Assembly (NCBI GenBank): GCA_028343155.1 | Contig: JAOLXX010000001.1 | Span: forward strand, 124,001-188,000 | DNA: 64,000 nucleotides | Source: Polaribacter sp. | GTDB taxonomy: Bacteria > Bacteroidota > Bacteroidia > Flavobacteriales > Flavobacteriaceae | Direction: 5' to 3' | Shown: positions 18,097-61,397 of the stretch, piece after piece | Layout: every line of letters begins with the position of its first letter | Position numbering within the stretch: the first letter of the stretch is position 1 | Notes under the pieces: model-generated | What the model saw: only the letters and a program-made list of their open reading frames with translations | What the model was told of the DNA's origin: nothing | Database searches by the model: none | Position numbers and translations under genes: made by a program

Positions 18097-18186
18097 ATCT
18101 AGGTCACATCTAGATTAATACATTGTTTTTCAAATATTTAATTACAATAAAGTAGATATTTGCACCATAATTATAAATCAATAAAT

Positions 18187-20638: not shown

Positions 20639-20700
20639 ACTTTAAACTACATTTTTTATACACAGACCTACATTTTTTCTATTTATATAAGCAATATTTG
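20639..20700 (+). promoter_or_regulatory. PUL operator/promoter A (esterase-cytochrome-sulfatase unit)
   Basis: Half-sites ACTTTAAACTACA (20639-20651) and ACACAGACCTACA (20660-20672) are 21 bp apart. A -7-like box AATATTTG (20693-20700) follows at the standard distance, 25 bp before the ATG at 20726. One of eight copies of the shared pattern. Confidence 0.75.
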
Positions 20701-20725
20701 TTTGGATTAAAATCGATAAATCTGT

Positions 20726-21817
20726 ATGAAAATATTAATAAACCACTTTCTTTTTTTTAGTTGCATTTTATTTTCAATTCTAATTTTTGGGCAAGAACGC
20801 AGTTCAGAGAATTTTAAAATGCTAAAATCTATCTATGAGAAGCATCCAAAGATAGATGTAAATAAAGATGGCGTTTTAACAGAAACTGAATATAGAAAAT
20901 ATCAAAAGAAACGTTTTTATAGAAAAGCAGCTTATCAATTATATGGCTATTATGATTATATAGAAAACGTGCCTTATGTAGAAAATGCAAGTAAAAGTTA
21001 TTTGTTAGATATTATTATTCCCGAAAACAAAATAAAAGAAAAATTACCTGTAGTTATTTTTATTCACGGAGGTGGTTGGAAAGGTGGTAACAAAGCAATG
21101 GGATTAAGAATTTTAGACAAAGTGCTAAATACAGGGAAATATATAGGCATTAGTATTAATTACAGATTGTCTGGCGAAGCAAAATGGCCATCACAAATTT
21201 ACGATTGCAATGCTGCAATTCGCTGGGTAAAAGCAAATGCAGAGAAATACGGAATTGATAAAAATAAAATTGCAGTTTGGGGAACTTCTGCTGGAGGTCA
21301 TATTGCTGCAATGTTGGCAATGACAACAAATAAAAAAGAATTTGAAGGAAATATTGGTAATCATTTAAATGAATCTGCAGCTGTTACTTGTGCAATAGAT
21401 GGTTTTGGTCCTACAGATTTTTTAATGAAGGAAAGCGTTTCTATCATTCCTAAATTAATTGCAAACAAGATTGAAAACATCAAAAAAGTATCTTACAACG
21501 TTTATAATTTGCTGGAAGGCATAGAGCAACAAGCCAGAAATGCATCACCAATTTACTTTGTTCATAAAAAAGCAAAACCATTATTTGTTTATCATGGACT
21601 TCAAGATCCTTTGGTAAGTATAAAGCATTCAGAAAGAATTGTAGAAAAGTTAAAAAAAATAGGAGCGAATGACACCTATTTAACCAAAGTAGAAGGTTTA
21701 AAACACGAACCTAAAATTTCCATTAGTTTACAAGAACGCATTTTACAATTTTTAGATAAATATCTGTATGATAAAAAGGGAGATTTAATAGAAATGGCAA
21801 CTGTATCTAATAATTAG
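20726..21817 (+). CDS. Exported alpha/beta-hydrolase (carboxylesterase type) with EF-hand
   Basis: 363 residues with a signal peptide (to about FGQ, residue 22). Residues 42-58 form a single calcium-type EF-hand loop (DVNKDGVLTETEY). The hydrolase domain has the oxyanion motif HGGGWKGG, nucleophile elbow GTSAGGH, acid region HGLQDPLVS and a final His in LKHEP. This resembles BD-FAE-like esterases and xylan/pectin deacetylases. In a carrageenan locus it could remove acetyl, methyl or other esters, but no substrate is shown. First gene of a three-gene unit (12 bp to the next gene) under operator A. Confidence 0.88.
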   Translation: MKILINHFLFFSCILFSILIFGQERSSENFKMLKSIYEKHPKIDVNKDGVLTETEYRKYQKKRFYRKAAYQLYGYYDYIENVPYVENASKSYLLDIIIPENKIKEKLPVVIFIHGGGWKGGNKAMGLRILDKVLNTGKYIGISINYRLSGEAKWPSQIYDCNAAIRWVKANAEKYGIDKNKIAVWGTSAGGHIAAMLAMTTNKKEFEGNIGNHLNESAAVTCAIDGFGPTDFLMKESVSIIPKLIANKIENIKKVSYNVYNLLEGIEQQARNASPIYFVHKKAKPLFVYHGLQDPLVSIKHSERIVEKLKKIGANDTYLTKVEGLKHEPKISISLQERILQFLDKYLYDKKGDLIEMATVSNN

Positions 21818-21828
21818 TTATTAAAGAA

Positions 21829-24800
21829 ATGATTATGTTTAAAAAAGATCGTATTTATAAAACTATTACTAAAATTCTTGCAATTTTTGTAGTGATACTA
21901 TGTTCTGCTTTTATATTATTTCCACAGGATAAAAAAATAACAAATACTTCACAAAAAGAAGGAGTTCACGCACCATTTAATAAGCAATACAAACCAGAAG
22001 AATTAGGTAAGGTTTTATCTTGGATAGATTGTGGTAAAGGTTTAAGCGCAGTTTCTTATCACAGAGGATTAATGTTAGCGCCAATGAGTTACGATTTTGG
22101 TGGCGGACTTGGAGATGGTGCTTTTGTGGCCTATAATATAGACGATCCTACAAAACCATACAGCGTTTTTGACTCAAGAGAGTATCCAGAGATTTATCAC
22201 ACAGAAGGTAAAAAAGATTATTTAGGAGATATTGCAGAAAATCACGGAATGTATTTTCATAAAGATTTGGTTTTGTTTTCAGAAAGAGGCTATAACAGAA
22301 CAGGTTTTATGATTTTAGATTTGGCGCCTTTGTATGATAATGACCCAAAAACATTGCCGAAAATAGTAAGTAGATATCATTTTCCAGATGTTGAAAAAAC
22401 AACAGTTTACGATGGTTTTTCATTTGCGCCAACTTGGGCTGGAGGAAGATATCTATATGCGCCAACAGGTTCTAACGGATTGTATATTGTAGATACTCAA
22501 AATTTGGATGAACCAAAATTATTAGCACATTTACGTAAAGACCAATTGTATAACCAAACATTGCGTTCTGCAAATGTAATTGGCGATTTATTAATTTTAT
22601 CTCCAGCAGCAATTGCAAGTGATGATGTAGATATTGTGTTGATTGATGTTAGCAATCCATCTTTCCCTAATTTGTTAAATCATCATACCATAAAAACAGG
22701 TTATCAAGGCACAATCTATGGTTCTCGATTTTATAATGGTGCTTTTTCAGGAAATAGAGGTGCAGACAAAACATCAGAAATTATTGCCTATGATTTTTCT
22801 GACCCAATGAATGTAAAAAACATCAACCTAACCAAAACAGAAAAACTTTTTAAACCAGAATATTTGTTTTTGCAAGATGATAATTTATTTATTGGACATT
22901 ATCCAGGTTTAAGCAAATGGAAAACTGAAAATGATAAACTTACTTTTGATGTAGCTATTGAACCAGAACATCCAAAAGCGAATGATTATGCATTTGTTTC
23001 TCCATTGGGTAATTTATCAATTGTTACTTCTGACCATATTGTTGAGAGTAGAATAAATATTGGAGTGCATCAAATAGAGCCAGATTTAAAAGGACCAGAA
23101 TTAAAATATGTATTGCCTAAAAAGAATGCGAAAAATGTATCTAAACTTACAAAAATCGGAATTTCTTTATCAGATTTTACAAGTAACGAAACCTTAACTG
23201 ATGATGCCATTTATATCCAAGAAAGAGGAACAAATTCTAAAGTTCCTGCAGATTTAGGTCACGGATTAGGTATTGTACACGCAATTCCTAAAAAACCTTT
23301 AAAAGACAATACTACGTATGATGTTTACATTACCAAAAACCTGAAAGATATGGTTGGTAATTCTTTTGAAGGTGAAAGTTTAATTACTTCATTTTCAACA
23401 GGAACAACGTTGGCAGATTATAGTTGTGAAATTAATACAGATTTACCCAAAGTAGTTGGTAAAAAGGTAACGATAAAAGCAATTATAAACAATAAAAAGT
23501 TGGCAGATAAATTACAGTATGCTTGGAATTTTGGAGATGGAACAGCAAATACTGAATTTTCTAAAAAATCATTCATAACTAAAAAATTTAACAAACCTGG
23601 TAATTATAATATCACTTTAATGACCAAACAAAAAGGAAGCGATAAAATTATAAAAAGTACTTCTGTACAAGTGGTACACGCTTCTTTGCCAAAGAGCAAA
23701 CCTGTTTCGAGTTCAAGTTTGTTTTTTGATGAAAATACAGACAAGTTATATGTTGTAAATCCAGATAACAATACGTTTACGGCTATCAATTCAAAATCTG
23801 GAAAGGTTATTTATGAACAAGAAACTCCAAAAAATCCGGTTGCTATTATTGGTATTGAAAATAAAATTTGGATAACTTCTAAAAAAGACGATAAAATAAC
23901 TATTTATAATGCTGAAGATGGAAGTTTTGTAAAAACCATCAACTTAAATTATGGGAGTTCGCCTCACGGAATTACTTATAATCAATTTAATAATAAATGT
24001 TATGTGGCATTAACTGCATTAGGTCAATTGCAAGAAATAAATACCAAAAACTATACTTTAGAGCGAAATATTCAATTAGATGGTTCTTTAAGAAACGTAT
24101 CTTTTGTGCCAGAAAAAAATATTGTTGTAGCTCCTCAATTTATTGCATCTAACCAAAAAGGAGCAAAAGTTGAATGGGTAGATTTAAAAAGCTGGAAAGT
24201 AAGTTTTAGTGAAACATTAAAACCATCTTTAGAAAATGATGGTTTGGCAAATGGTAGAGGTTTTCCAAATTATTTGGGTCCAATTGCTGTAAATCCGGAA
24301 CAAACTAAAATTTGGATTCCAGGTAAAAAAGACAATCTTTTAAGAGGTTTAAGGCGAGATGGAAATCCGTTAGTTTTTGACCACACAGTTAGAAGTTTAG
24401 CTGTTTCTATCGATTTAAATAAAGAAAAAGAAATAGAAGAAGATAGAATTGATTTAGATAATAACGATTTTGCTTGTGCTGCTACATACAACCCTTTTGG
24501 TAATATTTTATATGTTGCAACTATGGGAAGCCAAATAATTATGGCTGTAGATGCTTATAATCCAGGAAATCAATCTATTTTTAATTCTTATGGAGAAGGC
24601 ACAAATGCGTTAACAATGGATACTGATGGTTCAAAATTATACGTTCATAATCAACTTTCACGAGTTGTAAGTGTTTTTGATAGCAAACCAGATGGAGAGC
24701 TTAAATTCAATACAAAATGGAAAACAGTTGCCAAAGAAATTTTATCAGAAGATGTTTTAGAAGGTAAAAAACTGTTTCATAACACAACCAGAAGCAGTAT

Positions 24801-26043
24801 GTCTCAAGAAGGATATATGAGTTGTGCAAGTTGTCATATAGATGGAAGTTCAGACAAACGAGTTTGGGATATTTCTAATTTAGGCGAAGGTTTTAGAAAT
24901 ACAATAGATTTAAGAGGAAAAGCAGGAATGAAACACGGAATGTTGCATTGGTCTGGTAATTTTGATGAAGTTCAAGATTTCGACAATCAAATTCAAGCAT
25001 TAAATGAAGGAACAGGTTTTGTTTTTGATAAAATTACACGCAATCATCCACAGCTGTTTTCTAGCAAATATGGCTTGCATCGAGAACTTGATAATTTAGC
25101 AAAATATGTTGCTTCTTTAAATGAATATCCTAAAAGTCCGTATAAAAATAAAGACGGTAGTTTTACTGCAAATGCAAAAAAAGGGCGCAAACATTTCATT
25201 GATTTAAAATGTTATACCTGTCATTCTGGATCCACATTTACAGATAGTAAGTTAAGAAAATTGCACAATGTTGGCACTATAAAAGAAACAAGTGGAAATA
25301 GATTAAAGGGAGATTTATTAGGATTAGATACACCAACTTTAATCAGTATTTGGGATACTGCACCTTATTTACACGATGGTTCTGCAAAAACGTTAAAAGA
25401 TGTTTTTTCTGTAGGGAATTTGCCAGAAGCAGCAGTGCATCAGAGCGCAAATACGCTTGGTAAAAAAGAATTTAATGAACTAATGGAGTATATAATGCAG
25501 TTAGATTCTGAAGATGGTGTAACTACAAAAGATATTGGAAGTAAAAACACAAATCCAGTTTTTGAAAAAGAGGTTTATACATTTAATTATACGTATCGTT
25601 ATGATAAACGAGTGCATCCAATAGGGAAAATTAAAGCGTTTGATGCTGATAAAAACCAAACTATTTCTTACAAATTAGCACCTTCTGGTGGCGCAGGTTT
25701 TTTCTCTGTAGATGCAGAAAATGGCAAAATTAATTTCGATTATAAAGACATTTATTTTAGACATAGATTTAATGCACCTTACCAAACTAAAAAAACATAT
25801 TGGTTTAATGTAATGGCTTTAAATAATGATAATTTTCCAAATCAGATAGAAACAAGAGTAGTTGTAAATGTAACGTATCCTAAAATTGAAATTCCTTGGA
25901 AAGAATTAAATGAGTTGAAAAAAATAAATATACTTTTAGACAAAGGGAAAAAAATATCACAGCATCAAACAGAAAGATTAAAAATATTAAATAGAAAGGT
26001 TGTAAAAGTTCTTAAAGGCGAGGTAGAGCAATCAATTCATTAA
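21829..26043 (+). CDS. Giant propeller/PKD/di-heme cytochrome c protein
   Basis: 1404 residues with one N-terminal hydrophobic anchor or signal (IFVVILCSAFILF). From N to C: an LVIVD-like beta-propeller (about 50-415), a bacterial Ig-like domain (about 420-520), a PKD domain (about 530-615, WNFGDGTANTEF), a second YVTN/YncE-type propeller (about 620-965), then a cytochrome c peroxidase/MauG-like region with two heme sites, CASCH (about residue 1001) and CYTCH (about 1129), and finally a cadherin-like domain (about 1245-1350). The hemes imply redox chemistry in the periplasm or at the surface. Nothing in known carrageenan breakdown calls for this; it may oxidise a sugar or a protein cofactor. 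Second gene under operator A. Confidence 0.85.
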   Translation: MIMFKKDRIYKTITKILAIFVVILCSAFILFPQDKKITNTSQKEGVHAPFNKQYKPEELGKVLSWIDCGKGLSAVSYHRGLMLAPMSYDFGGGLGDGAFVAYNIDDPTKPYSVFDSREYPEIYHTEGKKDYLGDIAENHGMYFHKDLVLFSERGYNRTGFMILDLAPLYDNDPKTLPKIVSRYHFPDVEKTTVYDGFSFAPTWAGGRYLYAPTGSNGLYIVDTQNLDEPKLLAHLRKDQLYNQTLRSANVIGDLLILSPAAIASDDVDIVLIDVSNPSFPNLLNHHTIKTGYQGTIYGSRFYNGAFSGNRGADKTSEIIAYDFSDPMNVKNINLTKTEKLFKPEYLFLQDDNLFIGHYPGLSKWKTENDKLTFDVAIEPEHPKANDYAFVSPLGNLSIVTSDHIVESRINIGVHQIEPDLKGPELKYVLPKKNAKNVSKLTKIGISLSDFTSNETLTDDAIYIQERGTNSKVPADLGHGLGIVHAIPKKPLKDNTTYDVYITKNLKDMVGNSFEGESLITSFSTGTTLADYSCEINTDLPKVVGKKVTIKAIINNKKLADKLQYAWNFGDGTANTEFSKKSFITKKFNKPGNYNITLMTKQKGSDKIIKSTSVQVVHASLPKSKPVSSSSLFFDENTDKLYVVNPDNNTFTAINSKSGKVIYEQETPKNPVAIIGIENKIWITSKKDDKITIYNAEDGSFVKTINLNYGSSPHGITYNQFNNKCYVALTALGQLQEINTKNYTLERNIQLDGSLRNVSFVPEKNIVVAPQFIASNQKGAKVEWVDLKSWKVSFSETLKPSLENDGLANGRGFPNYLGPIAVNPEQTKIWIPGKKDNLLRGLRRDGNPLVFDHTVRSLAVSIDLNKEKEIEEDRIDLDNNDFACAATYNPFGNILYVATMGSQIIMAVDAYNPGNQSIFNSYGEGTNALTMDTDGSKLYVHNQLSRVVSVFDSKPDGELKFNTKWKTVAKEILSEDVLEGKKLFHNTTRSSMSQEGYMSCASCHIDGSSDKRVWDISNLGEGFRNTIDLRGKAGMKHGMLHWSGNFDEVQDFDNQIQALNEGTGFVFDKITRNHPQLFSSKYGLHRELDNLAKYVASLNEYPKSPYKNKDGSFTANAKKGRKHFIDLKCYTCHSGSTFTDSKLRKLHNVGTIKETSGNRLKGDLLGLDTPTLISIWDTAPYLHDGSAKTLKDVFSVGNLPEAAVHQSANTLGKKEFNELMEYIMQLDSEDGVTTKDIGSKNTNPVFEKEVYTFNYTYRYDKRVHPIGKIKAFDADKNQTISYKLAPSGGAGFFSVDAENGKINFDYKDIYFRHRFNAPYQTKKTYWFNVMALNNDNFPNQIETRVVVNVTYPKIEIPWKELNELKKINILLDKGKKISQHQTERLKILNRKVVKVLKGEVEQSIH

Positions 26044-26075
26044 ATAACATATCAAAATAATCAAGCATAAAAAAT

Positions 26076-27644: not shown

Positions 27645-27679
27645 AACTGAAAAAGTTTTTAAAAGCAAATACTAAAAAA

Positions 27680-27735
27680 AATAAGCACTAAATGTCTTTT
27701 CTATAAATAGCTAGATATGTAGTGCTTATTTTTAT
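27680..27735 (+). terminator. Terminator of unit A
   Basis: AATAAGCACTA (27680-27690) pairs with TAGTGCTTATT (27720-27730) around a longer AT-rich loop, followed by T residues. It separates unit A from operator B. Confidence 0.7.
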
Positions 27736-27750
27736 ACCACAGATTTATAA

Positions 27751-27812
27751 ACCAACAAATACATAGTTTGTACCTATAGAAACAAAACTTGGTTTTTTAG
27801 ATCTTATTTTTA
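27751..27812 (+). promoter_or_regulatory. PUL operator/promoter B (sulfatase and GH150-like unit)
   Basis: Half-sites ACCAACAAATACA (27751-27763) and ACCTATAGAAACA (27772-27784), 21 bp apart. Box TATTTTTA (27805-27812) is at the standard distance, 28 bp before the ATG at 27841. Confidence 0.7.
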
Positions 27813-27840
27813 TGTAACTAAATTTATATATCAAAAAATA

Positions 27841-29382: not shown

Positions 29383-29431
29383 TTATTAAACCTAATTATT
29401 TATAAATAATCTAAAGATTAAATAATATAAA

Positions 29432-32077
29432 ATGATAAAAAAAATATTCTTCACTGTCTTACTTTTAGTTAGCTTCATCGCAAATAGTCAAAACTTTTCT
29501 ACAGAAGGCAATGGAATTAGAAATGCAGTTAGCGCAAATGTTAATGGAAAAACAGTTCTTTATTTATCAGAATTATCAGGAAACATAGCAGCATATTCCA
29601 TTGAAGGTGAAAAAATATGGGAACATAAAACAACATCTCCAGCAGTATTATTTGAAATAAATGCAGTAGATATAAACAATGATAAAAATGATGATGTAAT
29701 TGCTGCAAGTGCAGATGGCAATATTTATTGTTTAGACAGTTCAGGTAAATTACTTTGGAAATTTAATCCAGGACATAAAGTTCGTTTTTCTGAAATTGCT
29801 ATTGTTAAAAATGATGGTAAGATTCAAATTTTTGCTGGTGGAAATGACTACAAATTGTATGAAATTAATGCAAAAGGAAAATTGATTTCGACAACAAAAA
29901 TTGCAGGTGTTGTCAGAAAAATTGAAGGAGGAAATTTCATTTACCCTAACAAACAATCACTTTTCTTAATGACTTATAATCACGATAAATTTCGTTGGGA
30001 ATTTATGGGGTTTCTAGACGCTGAAACTAAAGAAATAATTAAAAGTGTAAAGTTTAGTGATAAAAGACTAAAAGCTTTAAGAAAAGCAATGGTTACAGAT
30101 ATCAATATTGCAGATATCAACAATGATAAAAAAGATGATATTCTATTATTTGCAGATATTGCTTTCACTCCTTTTATGACTGCTTTGGATTCAGATTTTA
30201 ATGTATTAGCAGAATTTAAAGCGACAAAAAAGGAAGTGCAACGTTATGGACATTCACAAGGAACATTTTTAACAAACAGAAAAGAAATTATGTTTCAACA
30301 TGGTGGTATTTTGTTTGTTTTGGATGCTAAAGGAAAGTTGATTGCTAAAACAGGTGAAAGATATGGAGATCAAGTATACAGTGATTTTACTTATGATTCA
30401 AAATCAAATCAGTTAATTGCAGCAGGTGAAGTTGATGGAGGAAATGGTGTTTATTTTTATGATTTAAATAAAAATAAATGGTGGAATACCACTCAGAAAA
30501 AACAAGGTAGAATGTTAGAAGTTGAGCAGAACTTAAATACATTATACGAACAAACTTTAAAATTTAAAGCGCCTAAATATCAAAAAAAATCAGTTAAAGA
30601 TTGGGTAATGATTACATCCAAAAAAGTTGATACTAAAGTTAATAAACTGAAAGGACAAGATATTAAATTCGTAATTCAAAAATCTCCAAAAGAAAGCACA
30701 AATCGTTCTCATTTAGTAAAGATTATAGGTAAAGAAGCATTAAAAAAAGATAAACGAGGTAAATATCAAGATTCTAGAGAAGACATTGTACAAATGGCTA
30801 GAAATTATGAAGAAGAAGGACAGCCATTTACCTTCTGGGCTGGTCATGGTAATGATCCTTTTTACATTCAAATAGAAACTTTAGAGCAAATATTAGAAGT
30901 TGCTCCAAATACTTGTTATGGTTTTGTGTATGCAGAAATGGATAAAGTAGAAGATCCTAGAGTTCAGTATTATATAAAAGAATATTTGCCACGTTTAGCA
31001 AAAGCCATCAGAAAGAATAATAGAGCAAAATTGTATTTTAGATATAAGAATATGTTTTGGGCAGCAACCTCACATTTACCTTTATGGAAAGAAATGTTTT
31101 TCTCCGGAAAATACAACGATTTTTTAGTACCTGCATCAGAAGACACAAGCAATCGTATTCAAGATTTGAATTTAGCAGGAAGAGTTGGAATGCATTCTGG
31201 AGGATATGTAAATGATTTTGCAATGCGTTTAATTGATGATAATCCAACAAGTTGGAGACCATTATCTCCTGGAGGACAAAATTCAATATCACCCTATTTA
31301 AGACAGGGTGTTATTATGGCAGCTTATGGTGCACGTTATGGAATTGTTGCCAATAACAAATTTACAAAAGGTAATGGACTTAATGTATTATTTGCATTGA
31401 TGAAATCTGGAGTTTTACCAATTGTAAACCCAAAAGATATTCAATCTATAGGTTCTTGGCATTTAATAAAAGATGTTGAAGAAAAATTAATTCATACTGT
31501 AGATACGCATCATAATTTAAAACAGTACAAAAAGGATGATGACAATGCTGTTTTTTCAGTTGCACAAATGCATTGGGCAGGTACAAATATTCCTGATTAT
31601 GATTTTTCAAATGCAGCTTTAGGAATTAAATATAGATGGCTAAATTACATGCCTGAAATGCCCTATGGAATGGTGCCAGTAGCTCCAATTGAATCTAAAT
31701 CTATGGTAAAAAAACAGAACAAGCCTTATTTTGTGTCTAATGGAAAGATTGGTATTATAGATGATAAAAAAATAGCAGCAAGTCAGTTTGGTGAAACTAT
31801 TAAAAAAGCGGTTCATAAAGGAGAACAAGTTTTACCAATTGTTGTGAAAGGAGCTTCTTGGAGTGTTATTAAATTAGATGAAAATCATTCAAGAATTATT
31901 TTGGTAGATCAAGGTTATTTAGATCCTCAAAACAGAGAAGCTATTATCATTTTTCAAAAACGACAACCAATATCAGTAAAAGATATTTTGAGTAAAGAAG
32001 ATTTAAAAATCAATGAAAAATCAATAAAAACCATTGTTCCTGCTGGTTCATTACGTTTTATAGATGTAACTTATTAA
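29432..32077 (+). CDS. Propeller-linked glycosidase resembling GH150 lambda-carrageenase
   Basis: 881 residues with a signal peptide (FIANSQ). The N-terminal part (about residues 25-360) is a PQQ/VCBS-like beta-propeller with blades such as DINNDKNDDVIAASADGNIY. A basic linker follows (about 365-450). The C-terminal part (about 455-870) alternates strands and helices like a TIM barrel and carries acidic strand ends in FVYAEMD (about 499-502) and VPASEDTSNR (about 565-574), candidates for catalysis. The size and propeller-plus-catalytic-module plan match what is known of GH150 lambda-carrageenase; I infer that relation from architecture and context. It would be the endo-acting enzyme of the locus. 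Flanked by sulfatases. Confidence 0.65.
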   Translation: MIKKIFFTVLLLVSFIANSQNFSTEGNGIRNAVSANVNGKTVLYLSELSGNIAAYSIEGEKIWEHKTTSPAVLFEINAVDINNDKNDDVIAASADGNIYCLDSSGKLLWKFNPGHKVRFSEIAIVKNDGKIQIFAGGNDYKLYEINAKGKLISTTKIAGVVRKIEGGNFIYPNKQSLFLMTYNHDKFRWEFMGFLDAETKEIIKSVKFSDKRLKALRKAMVTDINIADINNDKKDDILLFADIAFTPFMTALDSDFNVLAEFKATKKEVQRYGHSQGTFLTNRKEIMFQHGGILFVLDAKGKLIAKTGERYGDQVYSDFTYDSKSNQLIAAGEVDGGNGVYFYDLNKNKWWNTTQKKQGRMLEVEQNLNTLYEQTLKFKAPKYQKKSVKDWVMITSKKVDTKVNKLKGQDIKFVIQKSPKESTNRSHLVKIIGKEALKKDKRGKYQDSREDIVQMARNYEEEGQPFTFWAGHGNDPFYIQIETLEQILEVAPNTCYGFVYAEMDKVEDPRVQYYIKEYLPRLAKAIRKNNRAKLYFRYKNMFWAATSHLPLWKEMFFSGKYNDFLVPASEDTSNRIQDLNLAGRVGMHSGGYVNDFAMRLIDDNPTSWRPLSPGGQNSISPYLRQGVIMAAYGARYGIVANNKFTKGNGLNVLFALMKSGVLPIVNPKDIQSIGSWHLIKDVEEKLIHTVDTHHNLKQYKKDDDNAVFSVAQMHWAGTNIPDYDFSNAALGIKYRWLNYMPEMPYGMVPVAPIESKSMVKKQNKPYFVSNGKIGIIDDKKIAASQFGETIKKAVHKGEQVLPIVVKGASWSVIKLDENHSRIILVDQGYLDPQNREAIIIFQKRQPISVKDILSKEDLKINEKSIKTIVPAGSLRFIDVTY

Positions 32078-32086
32078 TTAAGAATT

Positions 32087-33583: not shown

Positions 33584-33610
33584 CAATATTCTTTAAGAGT
33601 TTGTTTTAAC

Positions 33611-33648
33611 AAAAAAAGCTCTAAAGTTTTAAACTTTGGAGCTTTTTT
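33611..33648. terminator. Bidirectional terminator between unit B and the EF-hand gene
   Basis: AAAAAAGCTCTAAAGT pairs with ACTTTGGAGCTTTTTT (one G-U pair) around a short AT loop. The A-run and T-run at the two sides fit use by both converging genes. Confidence 0.8.
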
Positions 33649-33666
33649 AAATTCAATTCAAATAAG

Positions 33667-33972
33667 TTAGTTATTCTTTTTCTTCTTCCATTTTTTTGGA
33701 GGAGCAATAAATTCTACAAAAGTTAACTTTCCGTCTTTATTAACATCTTTATTTTTAAAGATTTTTGCTCCATCAAAAGGGTCACCTTTTTTGTTTTTTT
33801 TGCCTTCATAAAAAGCAACAATTTCCTCTTTGCTTACAGAGCCATTACTATCTCCATCTATTTTACTAAATTGTTTCTTTTGTCTTTTTTCTTTCTTGGC
33901 ATTATCTTGTGCATTTGTTTGCATAAAAACACCTAAAGCAATCACTAAAATACTTAATTTAATAATTTTCAT
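33667..33972 (-). CDS. Small exported EF-hand protein
   Basis: 101 residues with a signal peptide ending QTNAQ. Two calcium-binding EF-hand loops are clear: DGDSNGSVSKEE (about residues 39-50) and DVNKDGKLTFVE (about 76-87). The rest is very lysine-rich, with a C-terminal KKWKKKK tail that could bind sulfated polysaccharide or cell surface. It is the only minus-strand gene inside the locus. A copy of the shared operator, in minus orientation, lies in front of it, so it appears to be co-induced with the sulfatases. Its task is unknown; calcium-dependent binding or a chaperone-like role is conceivable. Confidence 0.88.
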   Translation of the reverse strand: MKIIKLSILVIALGVFMQTNAQDNAKKEKRQKKQFSKIDGDSNGSVSKEEIVAFYEGKKNKKGDPFDGAKIFKNKDVNKDGKLTFVEFIAPPKKWKKKKNN

Positions 33973-34000
33973 CTTTTTTTTTATTTAATAATTAACAACT

Positions 34001-34062
34001 CAAAAATCTACTTTTAAATATATAAAAATGTATACGTGAGTTTATATTTTGTGCTTTCAGAT
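34001..34062 (-). promoter_or_regulatory. PUL operator/promoter E (EF-hand gene, minus strand)
   Basis: On the minus strand, ATCTGAAAGCACA (34062-34050) and ACTCACGTATACA (34041-34029) are 21 bp apart. Box GATTTTTG (34008-34001) is at the standard distance, 28 bp before the ATG at 33972. Same geometry as the plus-strand copies. Confidence 0.65.
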
Positions 34063-34092
34063 AAAGAAATACTCTTTATGTTTAAATCAATT

Positions 34093-34154
34093 ACCCATAG
34101 AAACATTTATTAAACTTATGCAGACAATTAAAGGTAGTTTCTAAATTATTTTTG
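34093..34154 (+). promoter_or_regulatory. PUL operator/promoter C (GH2-GH127-sulfatase-GH82-like unit)
   Basis: Half-sites ACCCATAGAAACA (34093-34105) and ACTTATGCAGACA (34114-34126), 21 bp apart. Box TATTTTTG (34147-34154) matches TAnnTTTG exactly at the standard distance. The leader to the ATG at 34250 is about 90 nt, the longest of the set. Confidence 0.75.
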
Positions 34155-34234
34155 ATTTAAGAATAAGATAAAAACAGCGTAAAACAAGATAAGTATCTTT
34201 AATATCTTTCAAATAAATCTAATGATATTTATAA

Positions 34235-37495
<3,261 letters not shown>

Positions 37496-37499
37496 AACG

Positions 37500-39500
37500 A
37501 TGAAAAAATTAGGAATTATACTTTTTGCAGTCTTTTGTTTTGGAAATTTATTTGCCCAAGAAAAAGGGGTTGTTAATAATGCAGATAGCAAATTTGTAAA
37601 GTTTAAAAGCATAGATATTGGCGATTGCGTTTGGACAGATGGTTTTTGGGCAGATAAGTTTGAGATTGCAGAAAAATCGATGGTGCCTTCTATGGGTAAA
37701 TTGTTAGCAAGTGATACAGGACACGCACTAAATAATTTCAAAATTGCTGCAGGTCTTAAAAAAGGAAAACACCAAGGAATGTTTTGGCACGATGGCGATT
37801 TCTACAAATGGATGGAAGCAGCATTATACATTTATGCAGTTAATAAAGACAAAAGTATTTTAAAAGAAATTGATGAATATATTGCTATTATTGGAAAAGC
37901 ACAATTAGAAAATGGGTATTTACAAACGCAAGTTACCATTCCTAATAAAAAACCATTTTCAGAAAGAAAACATCACGAAATGTACAATGCAGGTCATTTA
38001 TACATAAGTGCTATAATTCATCATAGAATTACCGGCAAACGTAACTTTTTAGACATTGCCATTAAACACGCAAACAATTTATATAGTGTTTTTAAACCCC
38101 AACCAAAAGAGTTAGCGCGTTTTGGCTTTAATCAGGTGCAAATTATGGGCTTGGTAGAATTGTATAGAACTACAAAAGATAAAAAATATTTAGAGCTCGC
38201 AGAAATTTTTGTGAATATGCGTGGTAAAGCTAAAGTAAAACCAGATGCAACTGTAAGATTTAGAAATATTGGCGATATGACCCAAGAAAGAACCGCTTTA
38301 AGAGATGAAGACGAAGCAGTTGGTCACGCAGTTTTAGCACTTTATTATTATGCTGGTGCTTCAGATATTTATGCAGAAACAGGAGAACAAGCACTAATTG
38401 ATGCTTTAGATAAAATTTGGGGAAATATAGTAGACAAGAAAATGTTTATTACAGGAGCTTGTGGGCAAAAACACGATGGTGGTTCTTCTCAAAGAGATTT
38501 TGTACACGAAGCGTTTACAGTAGATTATGAAATGCACAATGCACATTCTTATAACGAAACCTGTGCAAATTTGTGTAATGCAATGTTTAATTATAGAATG
38601 TTGGGTATAAAAGGCGAAGCAAAATATGCAGACGTAATTGAAACAGTAATGTACAATAGTGCTTTGTCTGGAATTGATATTGGAGGTACAAATTTTTTCT
38701 ATACAAATCCGTTAAGAAGAGGTTTCGATCATAAAATGGGAGCAACAGATTATGCTACAAGAGTGCCTTATATTTCTTGTTTTTGTTGCCCACCAAACTT
38801 GGTAAGAACCATTGCAAAACTTTCTGCTTGGGCTTATAGTTTAACAAAAAACGGAATTGCCGTCAATTTATATGGAGGAAACAAATTGGAAACAAACTTG
38901 TTAGATTCATCCAAAATTAAATTAGTTCAAAAAACAGATTATCCTTGGGATGGAGCAGTTTCTATCGAAGTTAAATCATCTAAAAAAGAAGCTTTTGATA
39001 TTATGCTACGCATCCCAGAATGGGCAAATGGAAGTACAGTTTCTGTAAACGGAAAAGAAGAAAAAGCAACAGCAGGAACTTATTTTACAATGAATAGAAA
39101 ATGGAAAAAAGGAGACATAATTACCTTAAATATGCCAATGAAACCAGCATTAGTGGTTGGTCATAGAAATATTGAAGAAGTTAGAAATCAAGCAGCTATT
39201 AAAAGAGGACCAGTTGTATATTGTATAGAAACTCCAGATTTACCTAAAAACACTAATATTTTAGATGTGTATATTCCTTCTAATATTAAGTTGACTCCAC
39301 AAAAAGAAGTGAATTTTTTAGGAGGTTTATCAACCTTAAAAGGAACAGTAATGTTAACAAAAGATACTGGAGAAAAAATGTACAATACTTTAAAGAAACC
39401 AAATTGGAAATCTTATGAAGCTACCTTTATACCATATTATGCTTGGAGTAATAGAGGTGTTAGTGAAATGACGGTTTTTATGCCAGTTCTTTGGAAGTAA
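37500..39500 (+). CDS. GH127 family glycoside hydrolase
   Basis: 666 residues from ATG 37500, signal peptide ending NLFAQ, starting 4 bp after the GH2 stop. An alternative ATG at 37482 would overlap GH2 and spoil the signal peptide. The alpha/alpha-barrel residues of GH127 are all visible: Glu337 in VHEAF, Glu353 and Cys355 in NETCAN, and Cys429-Cys430 in CFCCPPN, matching the acid, zinc ligands and nucleophile of the arabinofuranosidase HypBA1. GH127 includes beta-L-arabinofuranosidases and, in carrageenan loci, 3,6-anhydro-D-galactosidases. The context favours the second; the conserved cysteines leave the first open. Confidence 0.85.
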   Translation: MKKLGIILFAVFCFGNLFAQEKGVVNNADSKFVKFKSIDIGDCVWTDGFWADKFEIAEKSMVPSMGKLLASDTGHALNNFKIAAGLKKGKHQGMFWHDGDFYKWMEAALYIYAVNKDKSILKEIDEYIAIIGKAQLENGYLQTQVTIPNKKPFSERKHHEMYNAGHLYISAIIHHRITGKRNFLDIAIKHANNLYSVFKPQPKELARFGFNQVQIMGLVELYRTTKDKKYLELAEIFVNMRGKAKVKPDATVRFRNIGDMTQERTALRDEDEAVGHAVLALYYYAGASDIYAETGEQALIDALDKIWGNIVDKKMFITGACGQKHDGGSSQRDFVHEAFTVDYEMHNAHSYNETCANLCNAMFNYRMLGIKGEAKYADVIETVMYNSALSGIDIGGTNFFYTNPLRRGFDHKMGATDYATRVPYISCFCCPPNLVRTIAKLSAWAYSLTKNGIAVNLYGGNKLETNLLDSSKIKLVQKTDYPWDGAVSIEVKSSKKEAFDIMLRIPEWANGSTVSVNGKEEKATAGTYFTMNRKWKKGDIITLNMPMKPALVVGHRNIEEVRNQAAIKRGPVVYCIETPDLPKNTNILDVYIPSNIKLTPQKEVNFLGGLSTLKGTVMLTKDTGEKMYNTLKKPNWKSYEATFIPYYAWSNRGVSEMTVFMPVLWK

Positions 39501-39544
39501 AAAAATAGACAAAAAGAGAAATTATAGTTAAAATAAATATATAA

Positions 39545-40945: not shown

Positions 40946-40946
40946 T

Positions 40947-42563: not shown

Positions 42564-42566
42564 TGT

Positions 42567-42628
42567 ACCACTAAACACATCAAAAAAACTAAAAGCTACA
42601 TTTCTATTTTATATTATAATCATATTTA
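42567..42628 (+). promoter_or_regulatory. PUL operator/promoter I (second GH82-like gene)
   Basis: Half-sites ACCACTAAACACA (42567-42579) and ACTAAAAGCTACA (42588-42600), 21 bp apart. Box CATATTTA (42621-42628) is at the standard distance, 28 bp before the ATG at 42657. Confidence 0.7.
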
Positions 42629-42656
42629 CAACTATCAATTTATATAGAATATTAAA

Positions 42657-44030
42657 ATGAAAACCAACAATCCTTATTTAGTCAACCTTTTTTTAATTTT
42701 CAGTTTTATATGCTTAGCTTGTTCATCAGATCCAGTTCAAAATCAAGAACCAGAAGAAGAAGTATCAAATTTAGTTTATGAGGGTGAAACCACATCAGAT
42801 AGATTAACAGATAATGAAGATCGATTTTATGAAAATAAGATACCAAATACAGAAGTTATAGCAACTTTAAAAGGAGATTGTAGTTCAGAAGATACTAAAA
42901 GTTTAAATCAACAAATAACAAATTTATCAAATGCTGGAGGTGGAGTTATCAGAATTAAAAAAGGAAATTACTGTTTTTTAAATGTTATTTTAAAATCTAA
43001 TATTCACATTAAAATTGATTCAGATGTAACTATTCAACCAGATTTAAGTGGAAATACTGCTGGTAAAAATTTGAATATGTTTAGAGTTGGCGAAGACTTT
43101 TTAGTAGAAAATGTAGCCATTACAAATTCAGATGAAGATAATACAGATATAAATACTTGGTTTAAGGGTAATATTCCTATTGGAGATTATAATGGAGTAA
43201 GATTTGTTGAGTTTAGCAATGTTAAAAACTTTAAATTTTCAGGAATGAATTTAACTGATAATTTTTCCGTTTTTTCTAACATCGTATTAAACCTGCCATC
43301 AAGTGCAAATGTTGATGAGATACCAATAGGTGGTATTGTTTCTAATGTAAAAATGACCAGTTTGCACGTAGGTTATGGTGTTGTTCAAATGCAAACAGGT
43401 AAAAAGGTTTTATATAAAAACCTTGATGGAGAAGGTGGTGTAACTTTAAGAGTAGAAACTGGTGCAGCTGCAACAAACCAAGTAAACAAGATTACTGTAG
43501 ATGATGTTGTTGGTAGAAATATTAAAGTGTCTTTTGGTGATGCTGCTTTTAATATGTCTCCACACAGAGTAGATCAAGGAAGAGTAGATATTGAAGGTGT
43601 TACAGCAGTTAATTCTACACACGCAGTACAAATTGCTGCAGGTTTTATTGGCTCAAAACCAAATTTAATCAATAGTAAAGGAACTTTTGATAGTCGTTCT
43701 TTTATAGGTGATATTACAGTTACAGGAGGAGATGGAGCCCAAATAAAAGGTAAAGATTTTAAGTATTTCGATTGTGAAGACAGAAAAACGTTAATCTTTA
43801 AGTGTCAAAACCCTGATAACGAAAGCACCTTTGGAAAATCTATAGGAGCCATTAGAGACAATGCAAGTTCTAAAAGCGGTTGTACAGGTTCTGGTAATGG
43901 ATGTTATGATGTAATTATAGGGAAAATTACCAAAACTAATACAGATTTTGAGCAAGAAGAATTTTTCATTTATCCAGGTAATGCTATTAATGGTTGTGGA
44001 CAAATAACAGCTCCTGCTAATTGTATTTAA
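42657..44030 (+). CDS. Second GH82-like beta-helix protein, lipoprotein
   Basis: 457 residues with lipobox CLAC and an acidic linker after it. It shares the beta-helix and the central segment with the preceding protein: GYGVVQMQTG, NLDGEGGVTLRVETG, NMSPHRVDQGRVDI. The presumed acid is Glu267, and the position of the GH82 base Asp is Gly269, the same change as in its neighbour. Unlike the neighbour it has no type IX tail but is lipid-anchored, so the two would work in different places, one released or attached through T9SS and one on the membrane. The sulfatase at 44056 follows after 25 bp. Confidence 0.72.
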   Translation: MKTNNPYLVNLFLIFSFICLACSSDPVQNQEPEEEVSNLVYEGETTSDRLTDNEDRFYENKIPNTEVIATLKGDCSSEDTKSLNQQITNLSNAGGGVIRIKKGNYCFLNVILKSNIHIKIDSDVTIQPDLSGNTAGKNLNMFRVGEDFLVENVAITNSDEDNTDINTWFKGNIPIGDYNGVRFVEFSNVKNFKFSGMNLTDNFSVFSNIVLNLPSSANVDEIPIGGIVSNVKMTSLHVGYGVVQMQTGKKVLYKNLDGEGGVTLRVETGAAATNQVNKITVDDVVGRNIKVSFGDAAFNMSPHRVDQGRVDIEGVTAVNSTHAVQIAAGFIGSKPNLINSKGTFDSRSFIGDITVTGGDGAQIKGKDFKYFDCEDRKTLIFKCQNPDNESTFGKSIGAIRDNASSKSGCTGSGNGCYDVIIGKITKTNTDFEQEEFFIYPGNAINGCGQITAPANCI

Positions 44031-44055
44031 CTTAAATTAGTAGAAAATTTTATAG

Positions 44056-45516: not shown

Positions 45517-45531
45517 TTTTTTTGAAGTTGA

Positions 45532-45593
45532 ACCACCAAGTACATTTTCTAAACTTAAAAGCACAAATAAGTATCAATATTATCAGATATTTA
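45532..45593 (+). promoter_or_regulatory. PUL operator/promoter G (sulfatase at 45615)
   Basis: Half-sites ACCACCAAGTACA (45532-45544) and ACTTAAAAGCACA (45553-45565), 21 bp apart. Box GATATTTA (45586-45593) is at the standard distance, 21 bp before the ATG at 45615. Confidence 0.75.
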
Positions 45594-45614
45594 CAAATAT
45601 TATAAATAAACCTA

Positions 45615-46988: not shown

Positions 46989-47076
46989 TTTTTTTCATAA
47001 TTTCATTTCTGTATAAAATTCCAAAAAATAAATGTTTCAGATTCTATTGTATAAGCATTTAATTAAGAGCATTTTT

Positions 47077-47138
47077 ATTAAGAAATACATATCCTAAACC
47101 ATTAGATACAATATTGTAAGTATCTTTTACTTTTTTTG
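47077..47138 (+). promoter_or_regulatory. PUL operator/promoter F (sulfatase at 47163)
   Basis: Half-sites ATTAAGAAATACA (47077-47089, one deviation at position 2) and ACCATTAGATACA (47098-47110), 21 bp apart. Box TTTTTTTG (47131-47138) is at the standard distance, 24 bp before the ATG at 47163. Confidence 0.65.
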
Positions 47139-47162
47139 TTAATGAACAACTAAAGTTAACTT

Positions 47163-48551
47163 ATGAAATCTGTTATTTATAGTCTTTGCCTTGTGTTTCT
47201 TTTTGCTTCTTGCAAAAACGAAATAAAAAAAGAAACAACTGCAACAAATCAAAAAAAACCAAATATCATTTTTTTATTGGCTGATGATATGGGGTATGGA
47301 GAATTAGGCGCTTTTGGTCAAAAAGAAATACAAACTCCTTTTTTAGATTCTTTAATTGGTCAAGGCAAAAAGTTTACAAATTTTTATGCAGGTACAGCAG
47401 TTTGCTCACCTTCAAGAGCTGTTTTATTAACAGGAATGCATACAGGTCACGTAAGTATTAGAGGAAATAAAGGTGTTCTTGGTAAGAAATTTACCAGAAT
47501 TCCATTGCGTAAAACAGAAGTTACCATTCCAGAAATGCTAAAAAAAGCAGGATATCAATCTGCAATGATTGGTAAATGGCATTTAGGCGTTCCAGAAGAT
47601 GTTTCTACTTGGGCAAAAGGCAGAGGTTTTGATTATGCTGTGCAAGAACAATGGGGAAAAGATGTAAATGGTAAAGAGATTGATGAAAGAATGCATTGGG
47701 TAAATAACAACCAAGATTCAATTTTTTATGATTTTAAAAAGTATAAGATTTTAGATGAATTTAGAACCAATTTTGCATTAGAATATTTAAAAGAAGAGAA
47801 AAAACCAAACGTTCCTTATTTTTTATATATGTCTTATAGAATTCCGCACGCACACGAATATCATATAACGCATAACGATTTATACAGAGAAAAAGGCTGG
47901 CCAGAAGCAGAAAGAAATCACGCAGCAAGAATTACGTTGTTTGATAATCAAGTAAGAAGATTATTCAACTTATTAAAAAAACAAGGCGAATTAGAAAATA
48001 CATTAATTATTTTTTCGAGTGATAATGGCCCTCAAAAAGAAAATCACGATCCTTTATTTTTTACAAGTTCAGCAGGTTTAAAAGGACATAAAAGAGATTT
48101 GTATGAAGGTGGAGTTAGAGAACCAATGTTTGCGTATTGGAAAGGTAAAATTATGCCAGGAACTGTTTCTAATCATCAATCAACTTTTTATGATGTAATG
48201 CCAACAATTGCAGAAGTTGCAGGAGTAGAAGCACCAAAACAAACAGACGGAATTTCATTTTTACCAGAATTGTTAGATAAAAAACAACCAAAACACAAAC
48301 ATTTATATTGGGAAATTCAAATAGGTAAAAAAGTAGAAGGTTTTAAACAAGCAACAAGAAAAGGAAACTGGAAAGCAGTTAGAATAGGCAATACTTACAA
48401 AACAGAATTGTATGATTTGTCTAAAGATGAATTTGAACAAAATGATGTTTCAGAAAAATATCCAGAAATAGTTAAAGAAATGAATAAAATTCTTCAAAAA
48501 GAAAGTGTAAAAAATGAATTTTATCCTTTCTCTGGTGGAATTTTCAAGTAA
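47163..48551 (+). CDS. S1 family sulfatase, lipoprotein (CSPSR type, 3 of 4)
   Basis: 462 residues, lipobox LFASC. Cys81 in AVCSPSRAV is the formylglycine site, with FLLADDMGYGE, GKWHLGVP and FSSDNGPQ. A canonical active site. The C-terminal part contains YEGGVREP, usual for S1 enzymes. It heads a unit under operator F that probably continues through the sulfatase at 48660 and the GH2 at 50258, since neither has an operator of its own and the next strong terminator is at 52641. Confidence 0.93.
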   Translation: MKSVIYSLCLVFLFASCKNEIKKETTATNQKKPNIIFLLADDMGYGELGAFGQKEIQTPFLDSLIGQGKKFTNFYAGTAVCSPSRAVLLTGMHTGHVSIRGNKGVLGKKFTRIPLRKTEVTIPEMLKKAGYQSAMIGKWHLGVPEDVSTWAKGRGFDYAVQEQWGKDVNGKEIDERMHWVNNNQDSIFYDFKKYKILDEFRTNFALEYLKEEKKPNVPYFLYMSYRIPHAHEYHITHNDLYREKGWPEAERNHAARITLFDNQVRRLFNLLKKQGELENTLIIFSSDNGPQKENHDPLFFTSSAGLKGHKRDLYEGGVREPMFAYWKGKIMPGTVSNHQSTFYDVMPTIAEVAGVEAPKQTDGISFLPELLDKKQPKHKHLYWEIQIGKKVEGFKQATRKGNWKAVRIGNTYKTELYDLSKDEFEQNDVSEKYPEIVKEMNKILQKESVKNEFYPFSGGIFK

Positions 48552-48587
48552 GTGAAATCCAATGTTTAAAAATTGATGATTGAACTT

Positions 48588-48606
48588 ATCCCGCTTTTTG
48601 CGAGAT
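48588..48606. repeat. Intergenic inverted repeat
   Basis: ATCCCGC (48588-48594) and GCGAGAT (48600-48606) pair imperfectly around TTTTT. No T-run follows. It may be an mRNA processing or attenuation hairpin between two sulfatase genes. Confidence 0.35.
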
Positions 48607-48659
48607 CTTATAGAGTTTTAATTAATTGAAGAAATGTATCAAAAAAAATAAAAGTAAAA

Positions 48660-50186
48660 ATGATGAAAATAAAAGTTTCAAATAGTATTTATATAGTTCT
48701 TTTAACTTGTTTCAGTTTACTTTCTTGTGAACAAAAAAAGAAAGAAATTTCTGAAGTAAAAAAAGTTGTAAAGCCAAATATCATTTGGTTAATGGCTGAA
48801 GATATGAGTACAGATCTGGAAGTCTATGGAATGCCAAATGTAAAAACACCTCATTTAAATAAAATGGCAGCAGAAGGTATTCGTTTTGATAACGCTTTTG
48901 TAACCAACCCAATTTGTTCTCCAAGTAGATCTGCAATGATGATAGGTACACATCAGGTTAAAACCAATTCTCATCAACATAGAAGTAATAGAAAAGTACC
49001 TTTAGATGCCCAGTTTAAACCATTCACAAAGTTATTAAAAGATGCAGGTTATACTACTGTTTTAGGAAACCACTCTGTGATGAAAAAAGGACGTAAAATA
49101 GATGTAAATTTCAAACACAAACCTATTGGAAATTGGGATGGAAAAACAGAATTTGGCTTGTTTGATAAGTATGATACATTTACAAAAGAAGACCAACCAT
49201 TTTTTGCGCAAATTCAGTTAGCAGTAACACATAGAGGAGATTGGTGGGATGAAATTAGAGAGAAATCTAAACATCCTGTAGATCCTAAAACGCTTACTTT
49301 GCCTCCTTATTTGGCAGATCATCCAGCAATTCGATTAGATTGGGCTAAATATTTAGACCAAATTGAATATATGGATGATGAAGTTGGGATGATTTTTAAA
49401 GAATTGGAAGACAAAGGAATGGCAGACAATACAATTGTTATTTTTATTGGCGATAATGGACGTTGTAATATTCGTGGAAAAGGATATTTACAAGATACAG
49501 GTTTACGAATTCCGTTTATCATCTATTATCCAAAACAATTTAAAGGTGGTCAAGTTAGAAAAGATGTAGTTTCTGCAACAGATATAACTGCTTCAATTGT
49601 AGATTTTGCAGGCATTGAGGTTCCAAGTTATATGACTGGAAAAGCAATTTTCAACAAAAATTTCGATAGAAAATTTGTGTATGGAGCACGTGATTTATGG
49701 GATGAAATAGATGAAAAATCAAGAGCAATTACTTCAGCAGAATGGGCTTATATTAGAAATGATATGCCAGAAGTTCCTTATGATGCACAGCAAGCGTATT
49801 TAGAATTTTACAGACCTGCAGTGCATATTATGCGTAAAATGTACAGTGAAGGAAAGTTAAATGAAAATCAAAAACCATTTTTTGAACCTACAAAACCAAA
49901 AGAGGAATTGTATAACTTAAAAGAAGATCCACATCAATTAAATAATTTAGCTACAAATTCTAATTACAAAAATATTTTAGCTGAATTACGAGAAGAAATT
50001 AAAATTTTTGATAAAGAAATTACACCTGTAAGTAGTATTTATCATCCAAATCCTGTCCCTGGGCAACCATTTATAAAATGGTTTCAAGAAAATCATCCTA
50101 ATGCATATAAAGAAATGAAAGCAGGAAAAGAAGTGGGTTATAAAAAATATAGTAGCGCTTACAAAAAACAATTAAAAAAGAAGTAA
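48660..50186 (+). CDS. S1 family sulfatase, lipoprotein (CSPSR type, 4 of 4), S1_8-like
   Basis: 508 residues, lipobox SLLSC. Cys86 in PICSPSRSA is the formylglycine site. WLMAEDMSTD has the Glu-Asp form and IGDNGRCN supplies the later metal ligands, as in S1_8-like enzymes. The usual GK motif reads GNHSVMKKG, so the sulfate-contacting lysine is shifted or replaced. The C-terminus is long and basic (KKYSSAYKKQLKKK). The gap to the preceding gene (108 bp) holds only a hairpin and no operator. Confidence 0.91.
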   Translation: MMKIKVSNSIYIVLLTCFSLLSCEQKKKEISEVKKVVKPNIIWLMAEDMSTDLEVYGMPNVKTPHLNKMAAEGIRFDNAFVTNPICSPSRSAMMIGTHQVKTNSHQHRSNRKVPLDAQFKPFTKLLKDAGYTTVLGNHSVMKKGRKIDVNFKHKPIGNWDGKTEFGLFDKYDTFTKEDQPFFAQIQLAVTHRGDWWDEIREKSKHPVDPKTLTLPPYLADHPAIRLDWAKYLDQIEYMDDEVGMIFKELEDKGMADNTIVIFIGDNGRCNIRGKGYLQDTGLRIPFIIYYPKQFKGGQVRKDVVSATDITASIVDFAGIEVPSYMTGKAIFNKNFDRKFVYGARDLWDEIDEKSRAITSAEWAYIRNDMPEVPYDAQQAYLEFYRPAVHIMRKMYSEGKLNENQKPFFEPTKPKEELYNLKEDPHQLNNLATNSNYKNILAELREEIKIFDKEITPVSSIYHPNPVPGQPFIKWFQENHPNAYKEMKAGKEVGYKKYSSAYKKQLKKK

Positions 50187-50205
50187 TTAGTATTCGTTTT
50201 CAGTT

Positions 50206-50227
50206 GCAAAACTCTTTTGAGCTTTGC
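50206..50227. repeat. Hairpin between sulfatase and GH2
   Basis: GCAAAACTC (50206-50214) pairs with GAGCTTTGC (50219-50227), one mismatch, around TTTT. Without a T-run it is more likely an attenuator or RNA-stability element than a full terminator. Confidence 0.35.
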
Positions 50228-50257
50228 GTTTAAATCAAAAAAAACAAAACCAAACCA

Positions 50258-52609: not shown

Positions 52610-52640
52610 TTAGTGCTTGATTTATTGAGTTTTACCTAAA

Positions 52641-52680
52641 CAAAACAACAGTTTTTAAATTATAGAAACTGTTGTTTTTT
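52641..52680 (+). terminator. Terminator after the second GH2
   Basis: AAACAACAGTTT pairs with AAACTGTTGTTT around a short AT loop, followed by T residues. It closes the unit that starts at operator F or earlier. Confidence 0.8.
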
Positions 52681-52682
52681 TA

Positions 52683-52744
52683 ACTTAAAGATACAAGTAA
52701 ATTACTCTCAAATACTTTTTTAATCAAAATTTAACGCAAATTTA
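52683..52744 (+). promoter_or_regulatory. PUL operator/promoter D (GH110-SusC-SusD unit)
   Basis: Half-sites ACTTAAAGATACA (52683-52695) and ACTCTCAAATACT (52704-52716, last base deviates), 21 bp apart. Box CAAATTTA (52737-52744) is at the standard distance, 43 bp before the ATG at 52788. Confidence 0.65.
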
Positions 52745-61329: not shown

Positions 61330-61343
61330 TAGTATAGATTATG

Positions 61344-61397
61344 ATTGATATAAAAAGACTGTTTTTTATTGACAGTCTTCTTATATCAATTTTTTCT
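61344..61397 (+). terminator. Terminator after the SusCD-lipoprotein unit
   Basis: TTGATATA and AAGACTGT (61345-61362) pair with ACAGTCTT and TATATCAA (61372-61389), followed by T residues. It isolates the last sulfatase from the susCD transcript. Confidence 0.8.

Follow-up and report, generated by a model that had tools for sequence, protein, structure and literature searches.

Hybrid two-component systems (HTCS) of Bacteroides are the closest described precedent for the elements analyzed here. In the available part of Ravcheev et al. 2013 (PMC3878776), direct repeats averaging 21 bp apart were predicted for 16 Bacteroides HTCS, dimers of these regulators were proposed to bind two turns apart on one DNA face, and the regulons span operons of polysaccharide loci. 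For carrageenan, the sections considered of the work on Zobellia galactanivorans (PMC5698469) describe CgrA (ZGAL_3159), a small stand-alone AraC protein needed for normal growth on this substrate; they contain no operator, and the terms 'two-component' and 'HTCS' are absent from the main text. No operator for a carrageenan regulator or carrageenan HTCS was found in the open-licence literature searched, insofar as its texts were accessible, and the main text of a 2026 ruminant carrageenan paper lacks the regulator terms that were looked for. Here we describe a series of operator-promoters in a 64-kb stretch of a Polaribacter sp. genome (hereafter the window), and predict with good confidence that the activator of this carrageenan-type regulon is a 1,377-aa HTCS encoded on another contig, C48. 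What we propose as new is the pairing of this operator with its sensor, the operator type itself being already known.

The window covers positions 124001-188000 of contig C1 in an assembly of 1.92 Mb (48 contigs, 81% complete). From about 18.9 kb rightwards it holds a polysaccharide locus encoding a lambda-carrageenase family protein, GH2 and GH127 enzymes, a GLAA/B-family enzyme, many sulfatases and a SusC/SusD pair (Table 1), and these enzyme families suggest that the substrate is a carrageenan-type sulfated galactan. GH127 is the family of Zobellia DagA3, a 3,6-anhydro-D-galactosidase, according to the part of PMC5698469 considered.

Architecture and placement of the operator-promoters

Each element spans 62 bp and consists of a half-site (ACYNNNARNNACA), 8 bp, a second half-site on the same strand, 20 bp and a box, with 19 specified bases. 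The preliminary description, drawn from the letters of the window, had listed eight such pairs; all eight are present at the positions it gave, with a half-site spacing of 21 bp in every case. Its conservation counts were reproduced exactly (A1, A11 and C12 in 16/16 half-sites, A13 in 15/16, C2 and A7 in 14/16 each), and the distance from the second half-site to the box is, as it had claimed, identical in 8/8, with an invariant TTT followed by G or A. A ninth operator is located 1.95 kb right of the window edge, indicating that the regulon reaches past the window.

The Bacteroidetes primary-sigma consensus comprises a -7 box TAnnTTTG and a -33 element TTTG. All nine boxes fit this -7 box: TTT occurs in 9/9 sites, followed by G in five and A in four, and the leading TA is looser. 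The -33 element is missing, with TTTG in the -33 zone of 0/9 sites and bare TTG in 2/9, as expected of an activator-dependent promoter.

Table 1. Operators, marker genes and candidate regulator. Positions refer to the window unless a contig (C) or locus (L) is named; G000 is the Polaribacter genome.
Feature	Position	Strand	Half-sites; -7 box	Context
Operator-promoter 1	20639..20700	+	20639-20651, 20660-20672; 20693-20700	25 nt ahead of start codon 20726 (esterase-like)
Operator-promoter 2	27751..27812	+	27751-27763, 27772-27784; 27805-27812	Ahead of sulfatase 27841 and lambda-carrageenase-family gene 29432
Operator-promoter 3	34001..34062	-	34062-34050, 34041-34029; 34008-34001	Ahead of EF-hand protein 33667-33972
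Operator-promoter 4	34093..34154	+	34093-34105, 34114-34126; 34147-34154	Divergent to 3; ahead of GH2 34250 and GH127 37482
Operator-promoter 5	42567..42628	+	42567-42579, 42588-42600; 42621-42628	Ahead of 42657 and sulfatase 44056
Operator-promoter 6	45532..45593	+	45532-45544, 45553-45565; 45586-45593	Ahead of sulfatase 45615
Operator-promoter 7	47077..47138	+	47077-47089, 47098-47110; 47131-47138	Ahead of sulfatase 47163
Operator-promoter 8	52683..52744	+	52683-52695, 52704-52716; 52737-52744	Ahead of GLAA/B-family gene 52788 and SusC/SusD 54755/57852
Ninth operator	G000:C1:189951-190012 (L037:1951-2012)			Ahead of T9SS-sorted secreted protein L037:2169-4718 and a further SusC/SusD-like pair
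C48 site	L040 -14283			32.2 bits, best of all
C48 site	L040 -5539			
C48 site	L040 -15744			
C48 site	L046 -2797			
C48 site	L047 +18398			
C48 site	L048 +17965			
Candidate HTCS	G000:C48:80867-84997 = L040:15852-19985			PF07494, PF07495, PF00512, PF02518, PF00072, PF12833
Lambda-carrageenase family protein	29432..32077	+		Locus marker enzyme; PF25290/PF25292/PF25291
EF-hand protein, 101 aa	33667..33972	-		Own operator
GH2 beta-galactosidase-type enzyme	34250..37495	+		
GH127-family enzyme	37482..39500	+		
SusC-like TonB receptor	54755-57835	+		
SusD-like lipoprotein	57852-59624	+		

The gap between box and start codon is 21-28 nt at six of the eight window sites, 43 nt at one, 95 nt at one and 156 nt at the ninth operator. 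Among 22 plus-strand genes checked between 18894 and 61426, an operator precedes seven, all of which have at least 93 bp of gap upstream, and no gene with a shorter gap has one; the eighth operator belongs to the divergent EF-hand gene. Three genes have a gap of at least 93 bp and no operator, 18894 (gap 413), 48660 (108) and 61426 (96), the long-enough gaps 48551-48660 and 61329-61426 being inside the locus. The operators of the EF-hand gene and GH2 stand back to back (34001-34154), their first half-sites starting 31 bp apart. The gene at 42657, which follows operator 5, has a weak rhamnogalacturonidase-like match far below the cut-off.

Coincidence, or an artefact of AT-rich composition, is in our judgement practically inconceivable as an explanation for this series. 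The window contains three matches to the 62-bp pattern without mismatch, four with one and one with two, and 30 first-order Markov sequences of 64 kb, whose total approximates the length of the genome, yielded on both strands zero matches at 0-1 mismatch and a mean of 0.03 at two. The scan of the whole genome that the preliminary description had proposed was passed, as all eight matches with at most one mismatch in the 1.92 Mb fall in this locus; they are C1:189951 and all but one of the eight sites of the window. Allowing two mismatches gave ten matches, nine of them in the locus with the minus-strand 34062 site as the extra one, and allowing three gave 57 versus 39 for a reversed control pattern, which is mostly noise. 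Leave-one-out scores range from 21.5 to 32.8 bits, and the spacing controls described below are negative. What speaks for such an explanation is the 34-bp pattern without box, which is only mildly enriched genome-wide (164 matches at up to two mismatches versus 120 for the reversed control); because this enrichment is moderate only, part of the signal is carried by the box and the intergenic position. The genome scan, the Markov simulation and the spacing controls led us to reject chance repeats, and a known RNA element was rejected because nothing in the window matched Rfam at the gathering score.

Association of the repeats with an HTCS clade

An alignment scan with the HTCS sensor yielded 79 loci, 64 of which were compared by the match of their DNA-binding domain to that of the Polaribacter HTCS; the other 15 had no plus-strand frame above 1,000 aa or no match at 1e-3. 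The 64 comprise 42 orthologs (47-89% identity in the DNA-binding region) and 22 distant HTCS (<45%). With a nine-site matrix at spacing 21, the median best score was 21.3 bits downstream of the orthologs versus 1.7 bits after the distant HTCS (p = 1.2e-9), and at spacings of 17-20 and 22-25 the ortholog medians were 1.1-5.6 bits. A matrix-free count of loose half-sites (A[CT]N8ACA) in 39 regions of up to 500 bp, taken after orthologs with at least 57% identity, gave 20 pairs at 21 bp and four at all other spacings between 13 and 44, with two in all on the minus strand.

These 20 post-HTCS sites come from 20 genomes, which represent 14 named genera plus two genomes named to family; in two pairs from the same genus the sites are identical or almost identical. 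Among the carriers are Ancylomarina and Labilibaculum (Marinilabiliales) and a Saprospiraceae metagenome-assembled genome (MAG; Saprospirales). Four of the ortholog loci (L092, L093, L096 and L102) are probably identical to contig records of genomes G072, G084, G002 and G051, and for this reason they do not count as independent of the lambda-carrageenase loci. An ortholog-only matrix built from the 20 sites, with no window data, was scanned over 264 kb of the Polaribacter genome. Its top 15 scores, 17.0-32.2 bits, are the nine C1 sites and six sites on C48, three of them in L040, the locus that holds the HTCS, and the next score is 13.2 bits, in a coding frame at L039:7762. Motif and HTCS clade are reciprocally associated, and judged by the scores the regulon would comprise about 15 promoters on two contigs.

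A profile from the nine C1 sites (R1) was scanned over 12 whole genomes. In G084 the five best matches all fall in one cluster, headed by the HTCS and holding homologs of both C48 and window genes, mostly in one orientation, with operators along it. The four best matches in G168 lie within 25 kb downstream of an HTCS whose frame carries one stop codon, one of them 24 bp after it, and the best match in G180 directly follows the HTCS. Within the relatives' clusters the sites stand ahead of genes: among 29 tabulated matches (66 in total), the majority are followed by a start codon at a distance of about 10 to 115 nt, three are farther away (in two of these cases the called frame starts within the site itself) and four with low scores fall in coding frames. 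Five genomes without an ortholog at the cut-off (G131, G003, G006, G007 and G012) gave E values of 0.01 to 0.96. Strong matches were also seen outside the examined loci, at G002:C12:846453, G002:C12:826226 and G072:C43:370717, and are either further regulon members or background.

The candidate regulator and competing explanations

The predicted activator unites in one polypeptide a propeller sensor, which we infer to be periplasmic, a Y_Y_Y domain, a histidine kinase, a receiver and an AraC-type HTH_18 domain. Its domains are complete, as are the phospho-acceptor motifs SHELKTP and SDVQMP. The preliminary description had named an AraC-type activator, 'AraC family or HTCS', from direct repeats that are separated by two helical turns and take the place of the -33 element; this view of the repeats stands, and of its two options the HTCS is favoured. 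Its placement of the regulator near the locus is not supported, as no PF12833 (HTH_18) gene was found on C1 and the likely regulator is the HTCS on C48, though in relatives it stands beside homologous loci. The genome has six HTH_18 genes, two of them HTCS. Relatives of the lambda-carrageenase gene were matched in 9 of 299 family genomes, this one included, and here a second copy, 28% identical, is present on C48 in the gene run after the HTCS. The HTCS gene begins 15 bp from the end of C48, and the ends of C1 and C48 share no 20-mers within their last 400 bases.

The recognition helices LNRTHF[YF]QKVK and FKSR[TS]HF are kept in the Polaribacter HTCS and in 10 aligned site-bearing orthologs, and they differ in the paralogs L119 (7.9 bits) and L126 (1.7 bits) as well as in the other Polaribacter HTCS, on C11. 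The helices also bear on a quite improbable alternative, that the operator belongs to a small AraC protein of the CgrA type, here the tandem pair at C48:49072-50938 (L039:9072-9938 and 10066-10938). This pair shares its contig with the HTCS and with six weaker sites, and Zobellia grows more slowly on carrageenans when CgrA is deleted (PMC5698469, in the part considered). Its DNA-binding helices, however, are unlike those of the site-linked HTCS clade, as are those of the small AraC in L077 of G180, a candidate CgrA counterpart. Small AraC regulators were rejected as the binder because five of their neighbourhoods (L039, L077, L091, L105 and L108) reach a best window-matrix score of 7.8 bits and such genes are rare at ortholog loci: one of 278-288 aa occurs in 3 of 43 loci (L088-L128, L130 and L131, including L122, which is outside the 42), with a 130-aa piece in one more. 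With the ortholog-only matrix, L039 has one place at 13.2 bits, the coding-frame match mentioned above. The comparison with the Zobellia AraC regulator made in the preliminary description does not carry over directly, CgrA being a small AraC protein and the five AraC neighbourhoods lacking the motif; CgrA-like proteins may regulate other genes. The tandem genes at L039:9072-10938 are very similar to each other and lie beside GH16-like and sulfatase-like genes, named by eye.

Several observations weigh against the HTCS as activator. It is not encoded on the window's contig, and the genome is 81% complete. The distant loci score lower at all eight control spacings too (p 8.6e-7 to 0.01), so that part of the contrast with the orthologs is composition; because composition lowers the distant loci at every spacing, the spacing control is the stronger part of the evidence. 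No exact pair directly follows the HTCS in 19 of the 39 ortholog regions, and some orthologs score low anywhere downstream, e.g. L112 (66% identity, -1.1 bits) and L120 (57%, 4.7 bits). The R1 scans placed the best matches away from the HTCS in three of seven HTCS-bearing relatives (G072, G129 and G019), with G129 (E 0.006) and G019 (0.05) hardly above the ortholog-free background, and of the five best matches in G002 two are likewise elsewhere, the other three being near the HTCS. These mixed results imply that a one-genome profile is weak in more distant genomes. Scored with the window matrix, the C48 sites are weaker, at 12-21.5 bits. A local-mode profile (R2) was built from 19 of the 20 ortholog sites, one of the identical pair L091 = L108, both kept in the 20-site matrix, being dropped; its whole-genome top five fall in the two loci, on C1 and C48, before matches elsewhere mix in, and it recovers eight of the nine C1 sites at E values up to 10, amid background only. 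Homologous loci could, finally, share an operator for another regulator.

This last point leads to an alternative that we hold to be improbable, namely that a third regulator, of another HTH family or encoded in the unassembled part, binds the repeats and the HTCS merely travels with the loci. The incompleteness of the genome and the three relatives with best matches elsewhere leave room for it, and association by a shared locus is not proof of binding. Against it stand the repeats directly after the HTCS in 20 genomes, the scores of 1.7 to 7.9 bits at spacing 21 in three loci with 48-52% identity in the DNA-binding region, and the 21-bp direct repeat as a published HTCS operator form (PMC3878776, in its available part).

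If the HTCS is the activator, each 62-bp element would be a promoter that depends on it and belongs to a single carrageenan-type regulon. The presumed ligand, an oligosaccharide derived from the sulfated galactan, would bind the periplasmic propeller, upon which the kinase would autophosphorylate and pass the phosphate on to the receiver fused to it. This would free the HTH domains, and those of a dimer could then bind the two direct half-sites (ACYNNNARNNACA), which lie on one helix face at a spacing of 21 bp. The downstream half-site would cover the missing -33 element and bring RNA polymerase to the -7 box, and in this way about 15 promoters on two contigs would be turned on by a single sensor. 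The available part of a 2024 study (PMC11253607) lends support to such a switch, reporting that in HTCS the receiver inhibits the DNA-binding domain and that DNA binding is phosphorylation-dependent.

Locus surroundings and comparison with known systems

The left flank of the locus carries a tyrosine integrase (16174-17439) and a small HTH_17 protein (18160-18480), and this arrangement suggests a mobile-element boundary; no tRNA was found beside the integrase within the 64-kb window. A 1,404-aa protein at 21829-26043, with matches to Big_5, PKD, cadherin and di-haem peroxidase (MauG-like), is odd for a galactan locus; its gene is probably co-transcribed from operator 1, and a protein 58% identical to it is encoded near the HTCS ortholog of the Saprospiraceae MAG (L110:402). 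At 63049-63951 a 300-aa open frame matches the beta-barrel part of a TonB-type receptor only and is possibly a gene remnant.

Taken together, the sequences point to a large HTCS regulon for carrageenan-type catabolism, with its wiring seen in three Bacteroidota orders. The wider proposal has two parts: about 15 promoters in two or more loci would answer to one galactan-sensing HTCS, and this regulator and its 21-bp operator would have stayed together as a wiring unit in Flavobacteriales, Marinilabiliales and Saprospirales, with reshuffling of the enzymes around them. It seems to us evenly balanced between true and false. If true, acquisition of the operator would bring a gene into the regulon, and the operator by itself could suffice to find unlinked members. 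The analysis defines, to the base, an operator of a marine carrageenan-type regulon and names a candidate sensor for it; for such a regulon the literature searched, in its accessible part, gives CgrA and no operator. With the motif, regulon members can be proposed from sequence even if their regulator is encoded on another contig or at another locus, and ligand, binding and induction become testable in culturable relatives.

Compared with the SusR operators of Bacteroides, the elements are likewise tandem direct repeats; SusR sites, however, are 67 or 77 bp apart in the available part of PMC3878776, and a SusR-like operator was rejected on this spacing. With the Zobellia CgrA regulon they share positive control and, among the induced genes in the sections considered of PMC5698469, GH127, sulfatases and SusC/SusD, whereas CgrA is a stand-alone AraC protein and an HTCS is implicated here. 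The closest likeness is to the Bacteroides HTCS operators as given in the available part of PMC3878776, which are same-strand direct repeats about 21 bp apart, the comparison being one of form and not of base motif; because the elements fit this 21-bp direct-repeat form, we place them within the known HTCS-operator type. As in Bacteroides, an AraC-type HTCS and a polysaccharide locus are associated with the operator in several genomes (20/39 regions). Unlike the Bacteroides cases, the present one concerns marine Flavobacteriaceae and a carrageenan-type locus, with nine operators along one cluster and a fixed distance to the -7 box.

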